Shown in pieces: positions 2,272 to 12,817 of a stretch of DNA of 22,833 nt (positions are counted from its first letter, which is position 1; the number at the start of each line of letters is the position of its first letter). Source of the DNA: a virus; the IMG/VR virus record IMGVR_UViG_3300050821_012663, positions 1 to 22,833 of that record; one strand, given 5' to 3'. Both the position numbers and the translations under genes were made by a program. The notes beneath the pieces were generated by a model. The model had not been told where the DNA came from and ran no database searches. It saw nothing but the letters and a program-made list of their open reading frames with translations.

Positions 2272-2507
2272 CCTGACACCTCTGGGTACTCTGGCAGTTC
2301 TGCTACAATGGTGTATACACCATCTTTAAAGCGCTCATGTAAAGCAGTATCATTCAGTGACATCGTTTCTGTCGGGCCGTATTCATCCAATCGCCGAAAT
2401 GAAAAGGTATTTGCCCTGGTATCCAACCAACAATCATATGTTTCTGAGTTTGGCTCAGGCATTGTCATTTTCACGTGTCGATAAAGAATTTTGTATGTAT
2501 TGCTCAT
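2268..2507 (-). CDS. hypothetical protein
   Basis: This encodes 79 residues starting MSNTYKILYRHVKMTMPEP. It is an acidic, probably beta-rich small domain with no recognised family. ATGA overlaps occur at both ends with the neighbouring small genes (2504-2507 and 2268-2271), so the three genes from 2800 to 2032 form a coupled set originally continuous with the Mu F-like head gene. Confidence 0.75.
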   Translation of the reverse strand: MSNTYKILYRHVKMTMPEPNSETYDCWLDTRANTFSFRRLDEYGPTETMSLNDTALHERFKDGVYTIVAELPEYPEVSG

Positions 2508-2800
2508 CTCATCCCCCTGTTGTATCGTCTCTGCGCGGCCCTGCGCTGGCGTCGTTTGTGTTTGCGCGCTCGCTCTTCACGTCGTATACGTGCGTTGACT
2601 TTCATCCGGTATAAGCCAAGCATGGCGTCGATTGAGCGCGATGGGATAGGTTTCCAATACTCAGGTGTGAACGTATGCTGCCATACGCCAGGACTAATCT
2701 CGCGCGATTCGTGTTGCGAGTTACTAGCTAGCATATAAGTCAGCCACATGCTATCCATGGCAGGGTTATCTATTATTGGCCCATTGAGCGGCTGAATCAT
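2504..2800 (-). CDS. hypothetical protein with Arg/Lys-rich tail
   Basis: This encodes 98 residues. The first 70 contain several Trp and Met residues (MDSMWLTYML, GVWQHTFTPEYW). The last 28 are almost all basic (RIRREERARKHKRRQRRAAQ), suggesting nucleic-acid or capsid-interior binding. Its ATG overlaps the TGA that ends the duplicated Mu F-like tail at 2797-2835. This places it immediately downstream of the head protein gene before the endonuclease gene inserted. The function is not known. Confidence 0.75.
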   Translation of the reverse strand: MIQPLNGPIIDNPAMDSMWLTYMLASNSQHESREISPGVWQHTFTPEYWKPIPSRSIDAMLGLYRMKVNARIRREERARKHKRRQRRAAQRRYNRGMR

Positions 2801-2835
2801 CCGTTATCATCTCCTAGCCCCAGGCTACATCTGCA
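2797..2835 (-). pseudogene. duplicate 3' end of the Mu F-like head gene
   Basis: These 13 codons read CRCSLGLGDDNG-stop. They parallel CRCSLGLPGDAGS-stop at the true end of the head gene (3789-4325). Several codons differ only synonymously (TGC AGA TGT AGC here, TGC CGC TGC TCG there), so the two copies are diverged rather than freshly duplicated. The stop overlaps the downstream ATG, which suggests that this is the ancestral 3' end. Confidence 0.75.
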
Positions 2836-2867
2836 ATGAGAAATACCTATGCAGCATGCACAATGTA

Positions 2868-2876
2868 TGATATAAT
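2868..2876 (+). promoter_or_regulatory. extended -10 promoter of the endonuclease gene
   Basis: TGATATAAT is a perfect -10 (2871-2876) with the TGN extension. No good -35 is visible. The leader to the GTG at 2920 is about 37 nt and contains TAAGGAG. Confidence 0.55.
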
Positions 2877-2919
2877 CAACCATGTTAATGTATGTTAGGT
2901 TATCCACTAAGGAGTACTC

Positions 2920-3792
2920 GTGAAAAGGAATGATCCCAACTTTAACGCAGTTGTTGAGCAAGCGATATATGACTACAGTCAGGGCACGCCACTCATGGAA
3001 GTAGCCAAACGATACAGCATTGATAGCAAGAAATTGACTCCCATTCTGAAACAGCGAGGCATCCATCGCGATGCTAAAGCGGCGGCAGCACTGTATATTC
3101 CCAGAACAAGCAAATTGAAGCGCATCGAGTTGCCTATAGAAGAAATTTGTCAGCGCTATCAGCAAGGAGAAACCGAACTCTCTCTTGCTAAAGCATTTGG
3201 TGTTTCGCGTCCAGTCATCGTAAGACGGCTGGAAGAATTTGGCATCGTGCGTAGAACACAAGGAGAAACGAATCGATTGCTGATCGCATCCCGCACCTCC
3301 GAGCAACGTCAGGCATACTCTAAGGCGGCCCATGATGCTGTACGCGGTACGCACGCAACATTCGAAACAAAGTGCAAAAATGCATTGACTCGGCAAGAAA
3401 GACAACTGGGAATATCGCCCGCAGAGCAATTGCTGCATCGGTGGCTTATCGATCGCGGGGTTGAATCCATCCCACAAAAAGCTATCGGCCCATATAACGC
3501 GGATCTTGCTATTGATCATACCGCTATCGAGATTTATGGCGGTGGTTGGCACGCCTCCGGACACCATATCAAGCGCGCCGCTGAACGCAGACGATATCTC
3601 ATCGAGAGCGGGTATTCCATTCTCATTATTTGGGTAGATGGGCGCAAGTGGCCTCTGTCGCACTATGTCGCAGATTATATTGTCTCGTTTATCAGTCAGC
3701 ATCATAATCCTACTACCCATGTCCTCAACGGCAAGGGTGAAGAGTTTTCGCCCGAAAATGCGTACTACAAAAAAGCCATCGGCGATATTTAA
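2920..3792 (+). CDS. EDxHD/Vsr-like homing endonuclease with two HTH segments
   Basis: This encodes 290 residues. It starts at GTG 2920, supported by AAGGAG 6 nt upstream. Two helix-turn-helix segments for target binding appear, at residues about 8-47 (PLMEVAKRYSIDSKKLTPIL) and about 73-108 (ETELSLAKAFGVSRPVIVRR). The C-terminal half is a DUF559/Vsr-type nuclease fold: SPAEQLLHRWL (E169), NADLAI (D195), AIEIYGGGWH (E204, H211) and LIIWVDG near 235-241. Such enzymes cut one allele of a conserved gene and spread by repair. The gene reads against its neighbours and lies at the 3' end of the Mu F-like head gene. The two stop codons overlap head to head in TTAA (3789-3792). Catalytic assignment is by analogy with the I-Bth0305I type. 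Confidence 0.85.
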   Translation: MKRNDPNFNAVVEQAIYDYSQGTPLMEVAKRYSIDSKKLTPILKQRGIHRDAKAAAALYIPRTSKLKRIELPIEEICQRYQQGETELSLAKAFGVSRPVIVRRLEEFGIVRRTQGETNRLLIASRTSEQRQAYSKAAHDAVRGTHATFETKCKNALTRQERQLGISPAEQLLHRWLIDRGVESIPQKAIGPYNADLAIDHTAIEIYGGGWHASGHHIKRAAERRRYLIESGYSILIIWVDGRKWPLSHYVADYIVSFISQHHNPTTHVLNGKGEEFSPENAYYKKAIGDI

Positions 3793-4325
3793 CTTCCTGC
3801 ATCCCCAGGTAGCCCCAGCGAGCAGCGGCACCTGGGGTGCGCTGGCGGGAATGTATCACCGTTGAAATCTGTCCCGATGGGCACGCTGCCCATATCCGCG
3901 TTCGCCTGGCAGTGCTCACAGGCCCCAGGCATCGCGAGCCAGCGAATCTGCATCACGCCCTGGCTCTGCAGTGTGTCCATCACCTCTTGCTCGATCGCGC
4001 TGGGCACTTCAACACTGGCCACCGTCTCAGCAAGGGTGTCCACCTCGGCGATGATATCCTCTTCGCTCAAGTCCGATGCATCCTGCCCGGATATCCAGTC
4101 ACCAATGCGCTGCACAAAGTTGCTCACGATCCCCCAGGCGCTGTTCAGTGCGTTCTGAAACTTGCCACCCCAGGCGATGCTACGCTCGTGCTCATCTTGC
4201 GCGTGTGCATGGCCGATATCCTGCGCCTGCCTGATAATGCTGGCGATCATCCCCGCTGCGCTTTCTTTGTCGTCGTGGGACGGATGCTTGCTCTTGGCGA
4301 ACAGTTCACGCAGGATCACTACCAT
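3789..4325 (-). CDS. phage head morphogenesis protein, Mu F-like C-terminal domain
   Basis: This encodes 178 residues. The N-terminal two thirds are helical and acidic. The C-terminus has the Mu F signature: GACEHCQAN (Cys pair, residues about 135-139), then TFPPAHPRCRC (about 158-168), the paired Cys/His motif of SPP1 gp7 and Mu gpF minor head proteins that associate with the portal. It is shorter than many family members because the usual N-terminal region is brief. Its ATG overlaps the end of the portal gene by 7 nt, the usual gene order. The 3' end lies at the homing endonuclease insertion and ends LGLPGDAGS, while a diverged copy of the terminal codons is found at 2797-2835. Confidence 0.85.
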   Translation of the reverse strand: MVVILRELFAKSKHPSHDDKESAAGMIASIIRQAQDIGHAHAQDEHERSIAWGGKFQNALNSAWGIVSNFVQRIGDWISGQDASDLSEEDIIAEVDTLAETVASVEVPSAIEQEVMDTLQSQGVMQIRWLAMPGACEHCQANADMGSVPIGTDFNGDTFPPAHPRCRCSLGLPGDAGS

Positions 4326-6505
4326 CTCAGTTTCCAGTTGCTCTTGCTCTGCGGTTGGTTGCCTCCACTCTCGGAGGCGCTGGCTTTTGGGCTTGCATCC
4401 CTTTCGAGTGGTTGCTCTCGAAACACTGGGAATACGGCGCGCACTGCTTCTGGCGTAGTGCAGAGCGACAGCGACCAGCGCAACGCTTCCTGCTGCTCTT
4501 CAGGGATCACATCGGAGACGAAGCGGCGCACTGGCTTCCCAGCCTTTACGTCTTTGAGCGCGACTTCCCGCCAGCGCCGAAACTCAGCCCCGACTTCTCG
4601 ACGATCTTGCCCGCTCTCTTGAGTTCGTATGTCCGCAGGTTGCGTTCCTGCTCCGGCATCGCTGCTAGTTCCTCGTCCAGTATCATCAGCACGTCCCGTT
4701 TCGTCTTCTGTGTCCGATTGTGTCCTCTCGACATTCGTATCCTCGATTCTGCCTTTGTATGGCTCTAAAACGCGCTCGATTTCCGCCCGTGTCCATGCGC
4801 GTGGCTGCTCATCCTCCATCACATTGCGCGCTCGAAGTATGCGCAGTTGTTCCTCGACGCCAGCCAGCGCCTCTACCACACGCGACATAGTTGGCTTGGC
4901 GGCGTCGTCTTTCTGCGCTGGCTGCTCCCCGTTCTGATTTGGCTTCTGTGGCGGTTTCGCGCTACCCTTGCCCTCTTGTTGCTCCCCAGGTTGCTGCTCG
5001 GTAGGATCGGGTGGGTTGGCGGCCATCTGATAACCCGCAAGTTGTGCCTGCTGGGCTGCCTTGCGTACATTCGGCTGGGCCATGTCGTCGATGAACACGG
5101 GACCATCCTTGCTCATGTACACACGCCCGATCTGCGGCGCGCCCGGTTCCTCTGGTAGCCCCGCGAGTTTGGCCGCCGCTGACAACCCCAGCACGCCCGC
5201 ATTCGTGTATGTCGTGATGGCAACCGCTTTCGATTGTTCGTCCTCGACCTCTTCGTACCCGCTGAGTGTAGCGCACAGCAAATCGCCATGCATCGACGGT
5301 TCGAAGTCAGTGGCCATGCACTCTGAGAAGACGTTGCCATAGATCACCGCGAATGGATCAATCGTGCGTCGGTACACCATCGCTTCCTGCGATTCGCCTA
5401 CGGACTTGTTCGAGGTATCAGTGAAGCCCAGCTCGTCCATCGGCACACCGTAGATGCTGGCCCGGATGTTGAGCATGTAGCGATCGAAGATCGAGTCGAA
5501 TGCGGGCTGCACAAAGGGTGTGTACTTCATGCCGGGTTGGGTGAACTTGATGCGACGCATCTGCTGCACATTGCCCGCCATGAGCGCATTCCAGGATTGC
5601 TCGTAGGCGTCGATCTGATCTGGTGTCCAGTTGACGGCCTCTGGCACTTCCATCATGCCCGCAGGTATATTGCCATCGGTATAGTACGCGAGATCCATCT
5701 TGGCTTTGCGTAGCGCCAGGTTGGTGATGAGGATCACACGCTCTACCCTGGACATGCCGTATGGATCGTCTACCGCAGGCGTCTCGCGCTTGTGGATCAT
5801 CATATCCGTGGTGTAGAGCGCGCCAGGGATGCCCCACGGGTACTGCTGATACGCGAACTTCGGCGCAAGTGGCGTGTATCCCCAGTCATCCAAGAGCGGC
5901 TTCATCTGATCCGCTGCTACCAGTCGCAGGCCGAGCAGTTTGCCGCCACGTGTGCGATTCTTGTAGATATAGAGATCGTCCACCTGGCTCTGCTCGCGCA
6001 ATGCGCTCTGTATCCACTCATGAATGTTGTGCTCACGATCTGGCTTGCTGAAAAAGTCCGTGAAAAACGATATCTCTTTTTGATAATCCTTTTCTTCAGC
6101 GCCCTCTGCAATTACCTCTGGTCGAAGCCCTATCTTGAGCTTCATACGCGGGACTAAATCAAGCCAATATCTTTCGCACAAATTGATTCCATAATCTAGA
6201 CGCGCTAGCCTACGTAACTGCTCGAATGATGGTATATCGTCCTGTTGTAGCGAGCGATCTGGGGGGAATGTATTCTGGGCGATGAGGTATTTATAGGCGA
6301 TCGGCAATCCGCCCGGATTCACCCCTTGCTGTGGCGGCAAGTTTGCACCAGGGGAAAATAAAGCGGTTTGTCCGACTGGCAGATTCTTTAATGCATTGCC
6401 GTAGAACGTGTTGCCATACGGCGTTTGCTGCATACCAGCGGGTACGTACATCAGCGCACCACCGGGCGCGGCACGTTGTAGCTTCTTGCGGGCGCGTTTA
6501 TTCAT
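4319..6505 (-). CDS. phage portal protein with long C-terminal extension
   Basis: This encodes 728 residues. The portal forms the dodecameric DNA entry channel of the head. Residues about 90-480 have portal-type sequence: DYGINLCERYWLDLVPRM, then SALREQSQVDDLYIYKNRT, DPYGMSRVERVILITNLA and SFTDTSNKSVGES-like turns near the clip/stem region. Residues about 500-560 are a Pro/Gln/Glu-rich linker. The C-terminal 230 residues include a charged segment and EFRRWREVALKDVKAGKPVR with RRFVSDVIPEEQQ, seen as extensions of some phage portals. A GTGAGGT ribosome site precedes the ATG at 6505. It sits between the terminase and Mu F-like genes. The portal call is firm. The role of the extension is unknown. 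Confidence 0.85.
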   Translation of the reverse strand: MNKRARKKLQRAAPGGALMYVPAGMQQTPYGNTFYGNALKNLPVGQTALFSPGANLPPQQGVNPGGLPIAYKYLIAQNTFPPDRSLQQDDIPSFEQLRRLARLDYGINLCERYWLDLVPRMKLKIGLRPEVIAEGAEEKDYQKEISFFTDFFSKPDREHNIHEWIQSALREQSQVDDLYIYKNRTRGGKLLGLRLVAADQMKPLLDDWGYTPLAPKFAYQQYPWGIPGALYTTDMMIHKRETPAVDDPYGMSRVERVILITNLALRKAKMDLAYYTDGNIPAGMMEVPEAVNWTPDQIDAYEQSWNALMAGNVQQMRRIKFTQPGMKYTPFVQPAFDSIFDRYMLNIRASIYGVPMDELGFTDTSNKSVGESQEAMVYRRTIDPFAVIYGNVFSECMATDFEPSMHGDLLCATLSGYEEVEDEQSKAVAITTYTNAGVLGLSAAAKLAGLPEEPGAPQIGRVYMSKDGPVFIDDMAQPNVRKAAQQAQLAGYQMAANPPDPTEQQPGEQQEGKGSAKPPQKPNQNGEQPAQKDDAAKPTMSRVVEALAGVEEQLRILRARNVMEDEQPRAWTRAEIERVLEPYKGRIEDTNVERTQSDTEDETGRADDTGRGTSSDAGAGTQPADIRTQESGQDRREVGAEFRRWREVALKDVKAGKPVRRFVSDVIPEEQQEALRWSLSLCTTPEAVRAVFPVFREQPLERDASPKASASESGGNQPQSKSNWKLRW

Positions 6506-10701: not shown

Positions 10702-11243
10702 GCGGCGTGTCCCTCCAGTTCGTCAATACATTCACCATCAAAAGAGAGAAAATAATGCCGAGCCGGGACTCGACGAATGCACCATTGAACTGAGACAAGC
10801 CGCCCCTGGCTCTGGTTCTTGTCTGGGTTGCGATGCCAGTCAAAAGGACAAGGGCGCTTTGCCATCTCCACCCAGAACCACTCCTTAAACTCAGGAAATT
10901 TCAAAATATAGATATCAAGCCCACGATCAGGTACAGTAAAGGCATAAACCAAATAATGAGCTTTGCTAGTTCGCATCCACCCATCTGTGATCATGCCAGG
11001 CTTTGAGCAAGATTCAGTTTCGCAGTAAAATTTAGAATATTGCTTGCTAATAAGTTTTTCTTCGAGTTGAAGTTCGCGCCCGCGATAGCACAGCGCTAAA
11101 TCAACCTTATCGTCTAACTGCTCACTGCTTCCGTCAGGATAATAGTGAAGATCAGTATGCCCTGGAAAGACATGAGAATAGAGAATCGGGAAAAGATGGC
11201 GATACTTCTTACTATCCTCGTTATTTACTGGGTAGTCATTCAT
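10698..11243 (-). CDS. putative PD-(D/E)XK-fold protein
   Basis: This encodes 181 residues. DDKVDLALCYRGRELQLEEK (residues 44-63) gives D48 followed by a strand and E61-x-K63, the D...ExK core of PD-(D/E)XK nucleases. Then come YSKFYCETES (E75) and a GWMRTSKAHYLVYAF segment (about 88-102) that resembles the conserved 'GW..SKADY..Y' stretch of that fold. No restriction enzyme family is recognised, and the assignment rests on the motif pattern. It is translationally coupled (ATGA) to the ParB-methyltransferase gene upstream, so the two proteins may act on the same DNA or in sequence, but this is inference. Confidence 0.6.
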   Translation of the reverse strand: MNDYPVNNEDSKKYRHLFPILYSHVFPGHTDLHYYPDGSSEQLDDKVDLALCYRGRELQLEEKLISKQYSKFYCETESCSKPGMITDGWMRTSKAHYLVYAFTVPDRGLDIYILKFPEFKEWFWVEMAKRPCPFDWHRNPDKNQSQGRLVSVQWCIRRVPARHYFLSFDGECIDELEGHAA

Positions 11244-12817
11244 TCAGCGAGCCTCCGTTGCATTGCCTCAAAATAGGCTTTGTCCTGCTCTATGCCGATG
11301 AACTTGCGCCCCTTGTCTTTCGCTACCTTGCCAGAACTGCCCACGCCAGCGAAGCCATCAAACACGGTATCGCCCCGGTTGCTGCTGATCTCCAGGAGAT
11401 GACGGAGAACCTGTTCAGGCTTTTGCGTTGGGTGAAGAGTATTGCCTTTGGCATCCACCAGTCGCTCTTTTCCTAAGCAAATAGGCGACTCGATGAAGTT
11501 ATGCATCTCATTTTCGCCCTGCCAGTTAAAGGTATGGCCACCCTGGTCTTTGGTGAAGAAGAGGATGTATTCGACGCTGCTCTTGAAATTGGTTTTCACA
11601 ACCTGAGTGCCAGGGTTGGTTTTATGCCACACGATAGTGGCCTTGACGTGCAGATCAGATGATTCTAGTGCCGCCCTGAGATGCGAGATATAGCCATCAG
11701 AGGTGAACACATACCCGCTGCCCTGCTCTCGGAGAATGCGCGCCCACTCACGTGCCCATAGTTTGAATGTATCGATGAATTGTTCAGGATCGCATTTATC
11801 CCACTCGCCAAAGTCCTGGGAGATGTTAGAGCGCCCCTCTAACTCGAACTCGTTGTCACGAGCAATGTTATAGGGGGGATCGGTAAGGACAAGATCCACA
11901 GAGCCAGCGCCGATCTTTAACACTTCTTCATAAAAGTCACCATGGACGAGGTGAATGCTATTTTTGCGCTCCCACTCGTCACGAATAGAGGCTATCAGCT
12001 TATGAAGTTTCGGATGCTCGGCATTCTCGCGCCAGTCCTTATCGTATGCACCCTTATCGATTTCGTTGTCTAACTGAGAGAGATAGGTTTCTCCCAAGTC
12101 GCCTAGTTGCTGGCGCGCGTACTTTTTCATCTCATTGCGAGCGCGGTAGTTTGTGGCCCGTTCTTTAAATGAACCAGGAGACATATATCCACTAATAGAC
12201 TCTCTAATAAGCCCTATCTGTTGCTCATGAGTCAGCGGGAGGATAGAACGCAGAAGAGTTTCGTTAAATGTCGGAGTCCCGACAATCCCTGTCGGGAGCG
12301 TACCATTTGATTCTGTCGGGGATTGCTCAAAAGTCCCGACAATGAGTTCCCAGGCAATCGGATGAATATTTTGAAGTAAAGCATAGTCCCCAACCTTTGA
12401 CCGACTCCATCCCAACATCTCTGCAATATCATGCTGCTTATACTTCTCCGCCAGCCGCGTCCACACAAATTCAGCAAATGTCACCAACGTCGAAGGTACC
12501 ACCGTTTCAGCCGCGCTATTCGATTCCAGAGCCAGTTTGTAGCGTTCCTGCTCAGTGAGATCAGTCTTTACCACGCAGGGGACCATAAGCAAGTTGAGCG
12601 CCTTTGCTGCCTCATAACGGTGCCTACCGTCAATAAGTTGATAACCATTCTCGCATGGTGTCACCACCAGCGGGTAGTTATCGAGAAAGCCCACGCGCTC
12701 CATGCTCTCTTGCACGCGCTTGAGCCCAGCAGAACTCACCCGCCGTACCGGGAGAGTCGAGACAATAGTATATAGAGGAATCATCTCATAGATTTGCTGT
12801 TCATTAGCTATCGCCAT
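11240..12817 (-). CDS. ParB-domain/DNA N6- or N4-methyltransferase fusion
   Basis: This encodes 525 residues. Residues about 10-105 are a ParB/Srx nuclease-like domain (QLIDGRHRYEAAK, 60-72). Residues 123-148 form a ParB-type HTH (QHDIAEMLGWSRSKVGDYAL). Residues about 285-525 are a beta-class methyltransferase: LVLTDPPYNIA (309-319) is the catalytic motif, VWHKT and HPTQKP (462-467) follow, and VFDGFAGVGSSG (485-496) binds SAM. The order DPPY before FAGxG defines the beta class. It adds methyl groups to adenine or cytosine amino groups of phage DNA, probably against host restriction. The ParB part may aid site binding. It heads the late leftward operon. The upstream region 12818-12948 shows no clear promoter. 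Confidence 0.9.
   Translation of the reverse strand: MAIANEQQIYEMIPLYTIVSTLPVRRVSSAGLKRVQESMERVGFLDNYPLVVTPCENGYQLIDGRHRYEAAKALNLLMVPCVVKTDLTEQERYKLALESNSAAETVVPSTLVTFAEFVWTRLAEKYKQHDIAEMLGWSRSKVGDYALLQNIHPIAWELIVGTFEQSPTESNGTLPTGIVGTPTFNETLLRSILPLTHEQQIGLIRESISGYMSPGSFKERATNYRARNEMKKYARQQLGDLGETYLSQLDNEIDKGAYDKDWRENAEHPKLHKLIASIRDEWERKNSIHLVHGDFYEEVLKIGAGSVDLVLTDPPYNIARDNEFELEGRSNISQDFGEWDKCDPEQFIDTFKLWAREWARILREQGSGYVFTSDGYISHLRAALESSDLHVKATIVWHKTNPGTQVVKTNFKSSVEYILFFTKDQGGHTFNWQGENEMHNFIESPICLGKERLVDAKGNTLHPTQKPEQVLRHLLEISSNRGDTVFDGFAGVGSSGKVAKDKGRKFIGIEQDKAYFEAMQRRLAE

Follow-up and report, generated by a model that had tools for sequence, protein, structure and literature searches.

The MuF-like head gene of the window, the whole stretch of 22,833 nucleotides of viral DNA analysed here, ends against an antisense gene that is probably an intein-derived homing endonuclease of the EDxHD type, with splicing lost and the end of the head gene supplied by homing instead. 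The head protein is predicted to be whole because its last 13 codons are present in a second copy, which closes the gene and is set against the endonuclease stop, and the other copy of this tail would have been left on the far side of the endonuclease gene. An earlier inspection of the letters (the sequence-only reading) had proposed an element that repairs the gene it enters by supplying a recoded end, which would fit the anatomy of the locus. Going beyond that proposal, and judged from sequence comparison, the insertion point is the site of MuF inteins and the relatives of the endonuclease are endonucleases lying antisense inside such inteins.

Locus layout and the endonuclease gene

The window is an IMG/VR virus record, a metagenomic contig, and features a run of minus-strand genes for terminase, portal (4319-6505), the MuF-like head protein (3789-4325) and small gene products. 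The MuF-like minor head or head morphogenesis gene encodes a 178 aa protein that ends in HPRCRCSLGLPGDAGS and matches head morphogenesis and minor head proteins of PHROG; the gene is complete, in agreement with the earlier statement that its frame is intact. Its product is 52-60% identical to those of contigs L099 and L101, both of which are without the endonuclease. The homing-type endonuclease gene that had been placed at the 3' end of the MuF gene is found there as a 290 aa ORF on the plus strand (2920-3792), between the head gene and the next phage gene (2504-2800, minus strand, 98 aa). It has a GTG start, five bases upstream of which lies the Shine-Dalgarno sequence AAGGAG (2909-2914, plus strand), and its stop codon overlaps that of the head gene in a shared TTAA, as had also been noticed. 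An ORF similar by eye to the 98 aa gene is present at another place in contig L100. Further along the window, an ORF at 11240-12817 (minus strand) encodes a fusion of an N6/N4 DNA methylase (Pfam N6_N4_Mtase) with a ParB N-terminal domain (Pfam ParB_N).

The endonuclease is composed of helix-turn-helix units and a Vsr-like or EDxHD-type nuclease domain, and E169, D195, E204, IYGGGWH, H216 and R219 are invariant among nine family members. Profile matches were obtained to 3hrl (E 5.5e-4), 3r3p (E 0.033) and 1cw0 (E 0.33), and a fold search returned 3r3p (probability 1.00, E 0.014, TM 0.63 of the target); the AlphaFold model of the endonuclease has a mean pLDDT of 81 and a pTM of 0.49. The profile and fold searches relate the nuclease domain to I-Bth0305I and Vsr with moderate confidence. 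No Rfam intron was identified at 2500-4400 of the window or at 4500-6300 of L002, a record with a second free-standing relative, and a group I intron was thus rejected as the carrier of the endonuclease.

The two tails of the head gene

The sequence-only reading had described two borders that encode CRCSLGL-type tails with differing codons, and both are present on the minus strand. The 5' tail copy (tail 1, 3789-3830) encodes CRCSLGLPGDAGS followed by a stop in the codons TGC CGC TGC TCG CTG GGG CTA CCT GGG GAT GCA GGA AGT TAA, and starts exactly at the intein site of the relatives (HPR/CRC). The 3' tail copy (tail 2, 2797-2835) encodes CRCSLGLGDDNG in the codons TGC AGA TGT AGC CTG GGG CTA GGA GAT GAT AAC GGA TGA; it lies in the orientation of the head gene about 1 kb from tail 1, across the antisense endonuclease gene, and contains the AGGAG of the next gene (2504-2800). 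Its TGA stop overlaps the ATG of that gene, which upholds the description of a displaced tail beyond the endonuclease. Among 3,000 simulations with a first-order Markov model, a match of seven residues between the tails never occurred (six residues in 3/3,000), and the observation of a duplicated tail is therefore right.

A 9 bp repeat said to be shared by the borders is also present, as exact copies of TAGCCCCAG at 2815-2823 and 3810-3818 within the codons for the LGL of the tails, but taken alone it is at chance level, with other exact repeats equally long found within 1.2 kb. The repeat was rejected as a target-site duplication because the homology of the tails runs past it on both sides. 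In the codons next to the site 6/12 bases differ between the tails, followed by nine identical bases, a clustering of differences with a chance of about 0.017 in a calculation made by hand and post hoc. Tail 2 uses AGA, which accounts for 6% of Arg codons, and the codons of tail 1 are commoner; the Pro of tail 1 is kin-like, being common to the tails of L099, L101 and L100. By its Shine-Dalgarno sequence and its overlap with the ATG, tail 2 resembles an original gene end. The original may nevertheless be either of the two, the tails being short and their codons too few for codon usage or phylogeny, and the codon differences appear compatible with recoding for cleavage resistance.

Phages without the endonuclease

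A comparison with related phages lacking the endonuclease had been suggested as a check. The first search, with the MuF protein, identified no close relatives, and the bacterial genome collection held none at the sensitivity used; searches with the portal and a portal alignment identified contigs L099, L100 and L101, whose portals are 50-66% identical and whose MuF genes are 37-60% identical to those of the window. Each encodes a single CRC-containing tail with the next gene directly after it, and in L099 the MuF stop overlaps the start of that gene, as the proposal anticipated. The MuF protein ends in HGKCRCSTAPVDEGD in L099 (tail form CRCSTAPVDEGD), in HPRCRCNVVPV in L100 and in HPRCRCSLGMP in L101. 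The tails of these kin vary (CRCSTAPVDEGD, CRCNVVPV and CRCSLGMP), so neither tail of the window is identical to theirs. In another kin phage, L013, the ORF at 2677-5568 (plus strand) encodes a portal apparently fused to a MuF-like C-terminus, with an inserted stretch that by eye resembles a 2H phosphoesterase (HCTL...HITL).

Endonucleases antisense to MuF inteins

About 155 related loci were scanned, consisting of the best 80 of 416 viral-contig relatives and a second set of 80, with overlap. A related stretch is found in 125 phage records, where most of those listed overlie annotated head, minor head or capsid genes, and in the public records inspected the stretches are antisense to these genes. 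All examined relatives except L002 (the same as L038 and L182) exhibit a stop-free back strand, and nearly all of them also exhibit intein motifs as scored by script. Pfam Intein_splicing and the TIGR intein N- and C-terminal models match the relatives tested. The intein lies directly before the CRC motif of MuF, as (H)N/CRC; the motif is exactly CRC in 52 of the 80 scored junctions, for which Asn before CRC was the selection criterion, and CxC-like in most others. Both tails of the window begin exactly at this site. The MuF intein of L005 (about 6404-4866, minus strand) seems to begin with Ala instead of Cys (HPN/AILGGQE).

In all 94 relatives compared, endonuclease and intein are encoded on opposite strands in codon register. 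At about 85 loci, intein block B (LxVTPNHPVL) and the endonuclease tail motif [QE]YRVI[RW]GDGE are reverse complements of each other, codon by codon. A distance of 111-114 nt from the block B Thr is common for the endonuclease stop, which there faces the first residues of the intein. In most loci the start codon is 61-67 nt away from Cys+1 and faces the His of the GHVYNL motif, with a Shine-Dalgarno-like sequence before it in 46/64 loci. The back-strand ORF is predicted to be a real gene, beyond the shadow of a conserved intein, because of the nuclease-fold match and of the survival of two free-standing copies where no intein is left. It is a striking instance of gene overlap, where the residues for splicing and those of the endonuclease act as constraints on one another.

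None of the ten public records inspected (L014-L019 and L260-L263) has the endonuclease ORF annotated; in L017, L019 and L260 the head gene has intein notes and the endonuclease ORF is without annotation. Hundreds of largely unannotated endonuclease genes are thereby indicated on the back strand of phage inteins. Endonucleases antisense to phage inteins may have been described before; a 2025 preprint by Gosselin has 'non-canonical architecture' in its title.

The window gene as an escaped intein endonuclease

On the minus strand of the window, an open frame of 352 codons without a stop (2800-3855) is codon-aligned with the endonuclease gene and shares the frame of the 3' tail copy. The antisense ORF at 2797-3831 had been taken for abandoned head-gene sequence, an identification that fails: this ORF represents the strand opposite the endonuclease gene, read in the frame of tail 2. 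The endonuclease gene contains TTA, CTA or TCA in 0/39 Leu and Ser codons (P about 0.003 from the codon usage of the phage, for the endonuclease part), and the back strand therefore meets no stop in the intein phase as far as the far tail; in L002, 6/42 Leu and Ser codons are of these three kinds. The frame at 2800-3855 is, very probably, a relic of the intein reading frame. The C-terminal segment HVLNGKGEEF (3718-3747, plus strand) matches the family motif YRVI[RW]GDGE and lies opposite block B. Its back strand reads KLFTLAVEDM, where the catalytic Thr and His of block B are lost; L002 reads GARPTNDS opposite block B and has lost both residues as well, although the homologous endonuclease segment is retained in both free-standing copies.

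The remaining parts of an intein were looked for in the window. The N-extein frame exhibits no N-terminal nucleophile and no blocks A and B, as the MuF frame stops after CRCSLGLPGDAGS, and the Pfam and NCBIfam/TIGR intein models gave no match. There is no C-terminal (H)N before the +1 residue, where the window reads GISH/CRC; Asn stands there in the 80 scored relatives, but these were selected by that pattern. The spacer between the endonuclease start and the 3' tail (2836-2919, minus strand) occupies the position of intein blocks F and G in the relatives. A likeness of this spacer to blocks F/G is suggestive by eye and was rejected as evidence, since 549 of 2,000 shuffles were as good in a pairwise test; part of the likeness arises because translation signals force it (a His codon opposite the start, and CTCC opposite the Shine-Dalgarno sequence).

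A tree of 79 endonucleases groups the window gene with the intein-borne L025 (SH-aLRT 93) and the gene of L002 with the intein-borne L031, L082 and L027 (SH-aLRT 83), which places both within the intein-borne genes. This is a quick tree of modest support, which suggests two changes to the free-standing state, with a single origin possible. The second free-standing relative (L002, 4750-5786) is located at the 3' end of MuF in a provirus-like record, and its product has an extra N-terminal Cys/His-rich stretch. In both free-standing genes the endonuclease stop overlaps the end of the head gene. L002 has no tail duplication, and no second free-standing example with a duplicated tail was found among the loci scanned. 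The tree and the overprint together argue strongly that the window gene is an escaped intein endonuclease, descended from one on the back strand of a MuF intein. One locus would thus display a route from intein to free-standing endonuclease.

Proposed mechanism and alternative explanations

In the preferred explanation, the enzyme would cut an uninterrupted MuF gene near HPR/CRC, and repair would copy the whole stretch that separates the MuF body from the far tail. The recipient would gain the element-borne tail and the endonuclease gene while its own tail became an orphan, and homing would move tail and endonuclease as one unit. The carried tail should be immune through synonymous changes, since without them the restored junction could be cut once more. 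Homing by the window element is moderately supported; the recoding of the tail as resistance is the weakest step, with weak to moderate support. The duplicated tail is known from a single case, and the free-standing state without duplication likewise from one (L002).

The chief rival would produce the same anatomy with no rescue function. It supposes a one-sided homing accident, in which an intein-borne endonuclease cut MuF and repair of one end from the donor copied in its C-extein tail together with the endonuclease gene, while joining at the other end involved no homology. In that case the 5' tail would be the recipient's own and the 3' tail the donor's, and nothing would have been brought to rescue the gene. 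The kin-like Pro (L099, L101, L100) and commoner codons of the 5' tail agree with this, as do the AGA of the 3' tail and the absence of a second tail from L002, and a random join predicts the overlap of endonuclease and head gene stops that occurs in both free-standing cases. Against it, the 3' tail carries the Shine-Dalgarno sequence and the overlap with the next ATG, like the original gene end in L099, and the 9-mer CTGGGGCTA is common to both tails although the adjoining codons differ. On balance such an accident is rather unlikely, if worth serious consideration.

An ordinary free-standing homing endonuclease, inserted between genes without intein ancestry, is highly improbable. Free-standing homing endonucleases do occur in phages such as T4 (PMC3943268), and the window yields no detectable intein domain; yet the window gene is nested among intein-borne genes, its C-terminal segment is an imprint of block B, its back strand is open and codon-aligned, and the insertion lies exactly at the intein site. 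The least probable account is an assembly chimera of intein-bearing and intein-free phage variants in one sample. The record is an IMG/VR contig, for which mixed populations are common, but the join of MuF tail and endonuclease offers no obvious shared sequence of a length that could mislead an assembler, the block B residues are mutated and not intact, and the independent record L002 has the same tail-to-tail join.

Comparison with known systems

The nuclease domain, with its helix-turn-helix DNA-binding units, is related to the EDxHD or Vsr-like I-Bth0305I. Dassa (2009) is said to have described this EDxHD or Vsr-like family in stand-alone and split-intein settings. Unlike the window gene, I-Bth0305I belongs to a mobile intron (PMC3943268). 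A similar setting is that of the inteins in phage minor head or capsid morphogenesis genes (such as those of Snoke and LSPA1; PMC6776784), which occupy the same gene at the same insertion point before CRC, and whose back strand encodes a relative of the window endonuclease. These inteins keep the splicing motifs and the terminal Asn, whereas the window has none, and their public annotation is that of the host gene or intein, without the antisense endonuclease. The out-of-frame HNH insertions of ShiLan (PMC11855218) are similar in being a phage homing element with the endonuclease in a frame other than that of the host gene.

The sequence-only reading had likened the recoded end to integrative elements that rebuild tRNA ends, and a closer likeness is to the WHO elements of Torulaspora and Lachancea yeasts, which are related to the VDE intein (PMC7282813). 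In the model for WHO, homing into FBA1 replaces the 3' end with a cleavage-resistant one, the old end is left as a fragment beyond the endonuclease gene, and protein splicing is not needed (PMC7282813). The window shares this layout: an intein-related endonuclease gene stands next to a host gene that is complete, and a displaced fragment of the 3' end of the host gene (about 40 bp) lies on the far side. WHO elements have a LAGLIDADG-type intein-like domain with a zinc finger and FBA1 fragments of about 400 bp, occur in clusters and have demonstrated cleavage (PMC7282813); the window has an EDxHD-type nuclease on the opposite strand with a tail of about 40 bp, in one copy and with a predicted activity. 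The LAGLIDADG-superfamily domain fused to a zinc finger that defines WHO/HO homology is absent from the window endonuclease. Its nuclease family is different, and the element is therefore WHO-like in layout and no member of WHO. In its fullest form, the reading is that a widespread class of phage inteins carries on its back strand a complete endonuclease gene in codon-for-codon overprint, with block B and the endonuclease tail encoded by shared bases, and that the window holds such an element after it gave up splicing, now supplying a recoded, cleavage-resistant gene end as an independent phage counterpart of yeast WHO/HO; this is tentative and falls a little short of an even chance. The locus would then be a natural parallel, in phages and in a different nuclease family, to the yeast elements that have been proposed as the source of HO.
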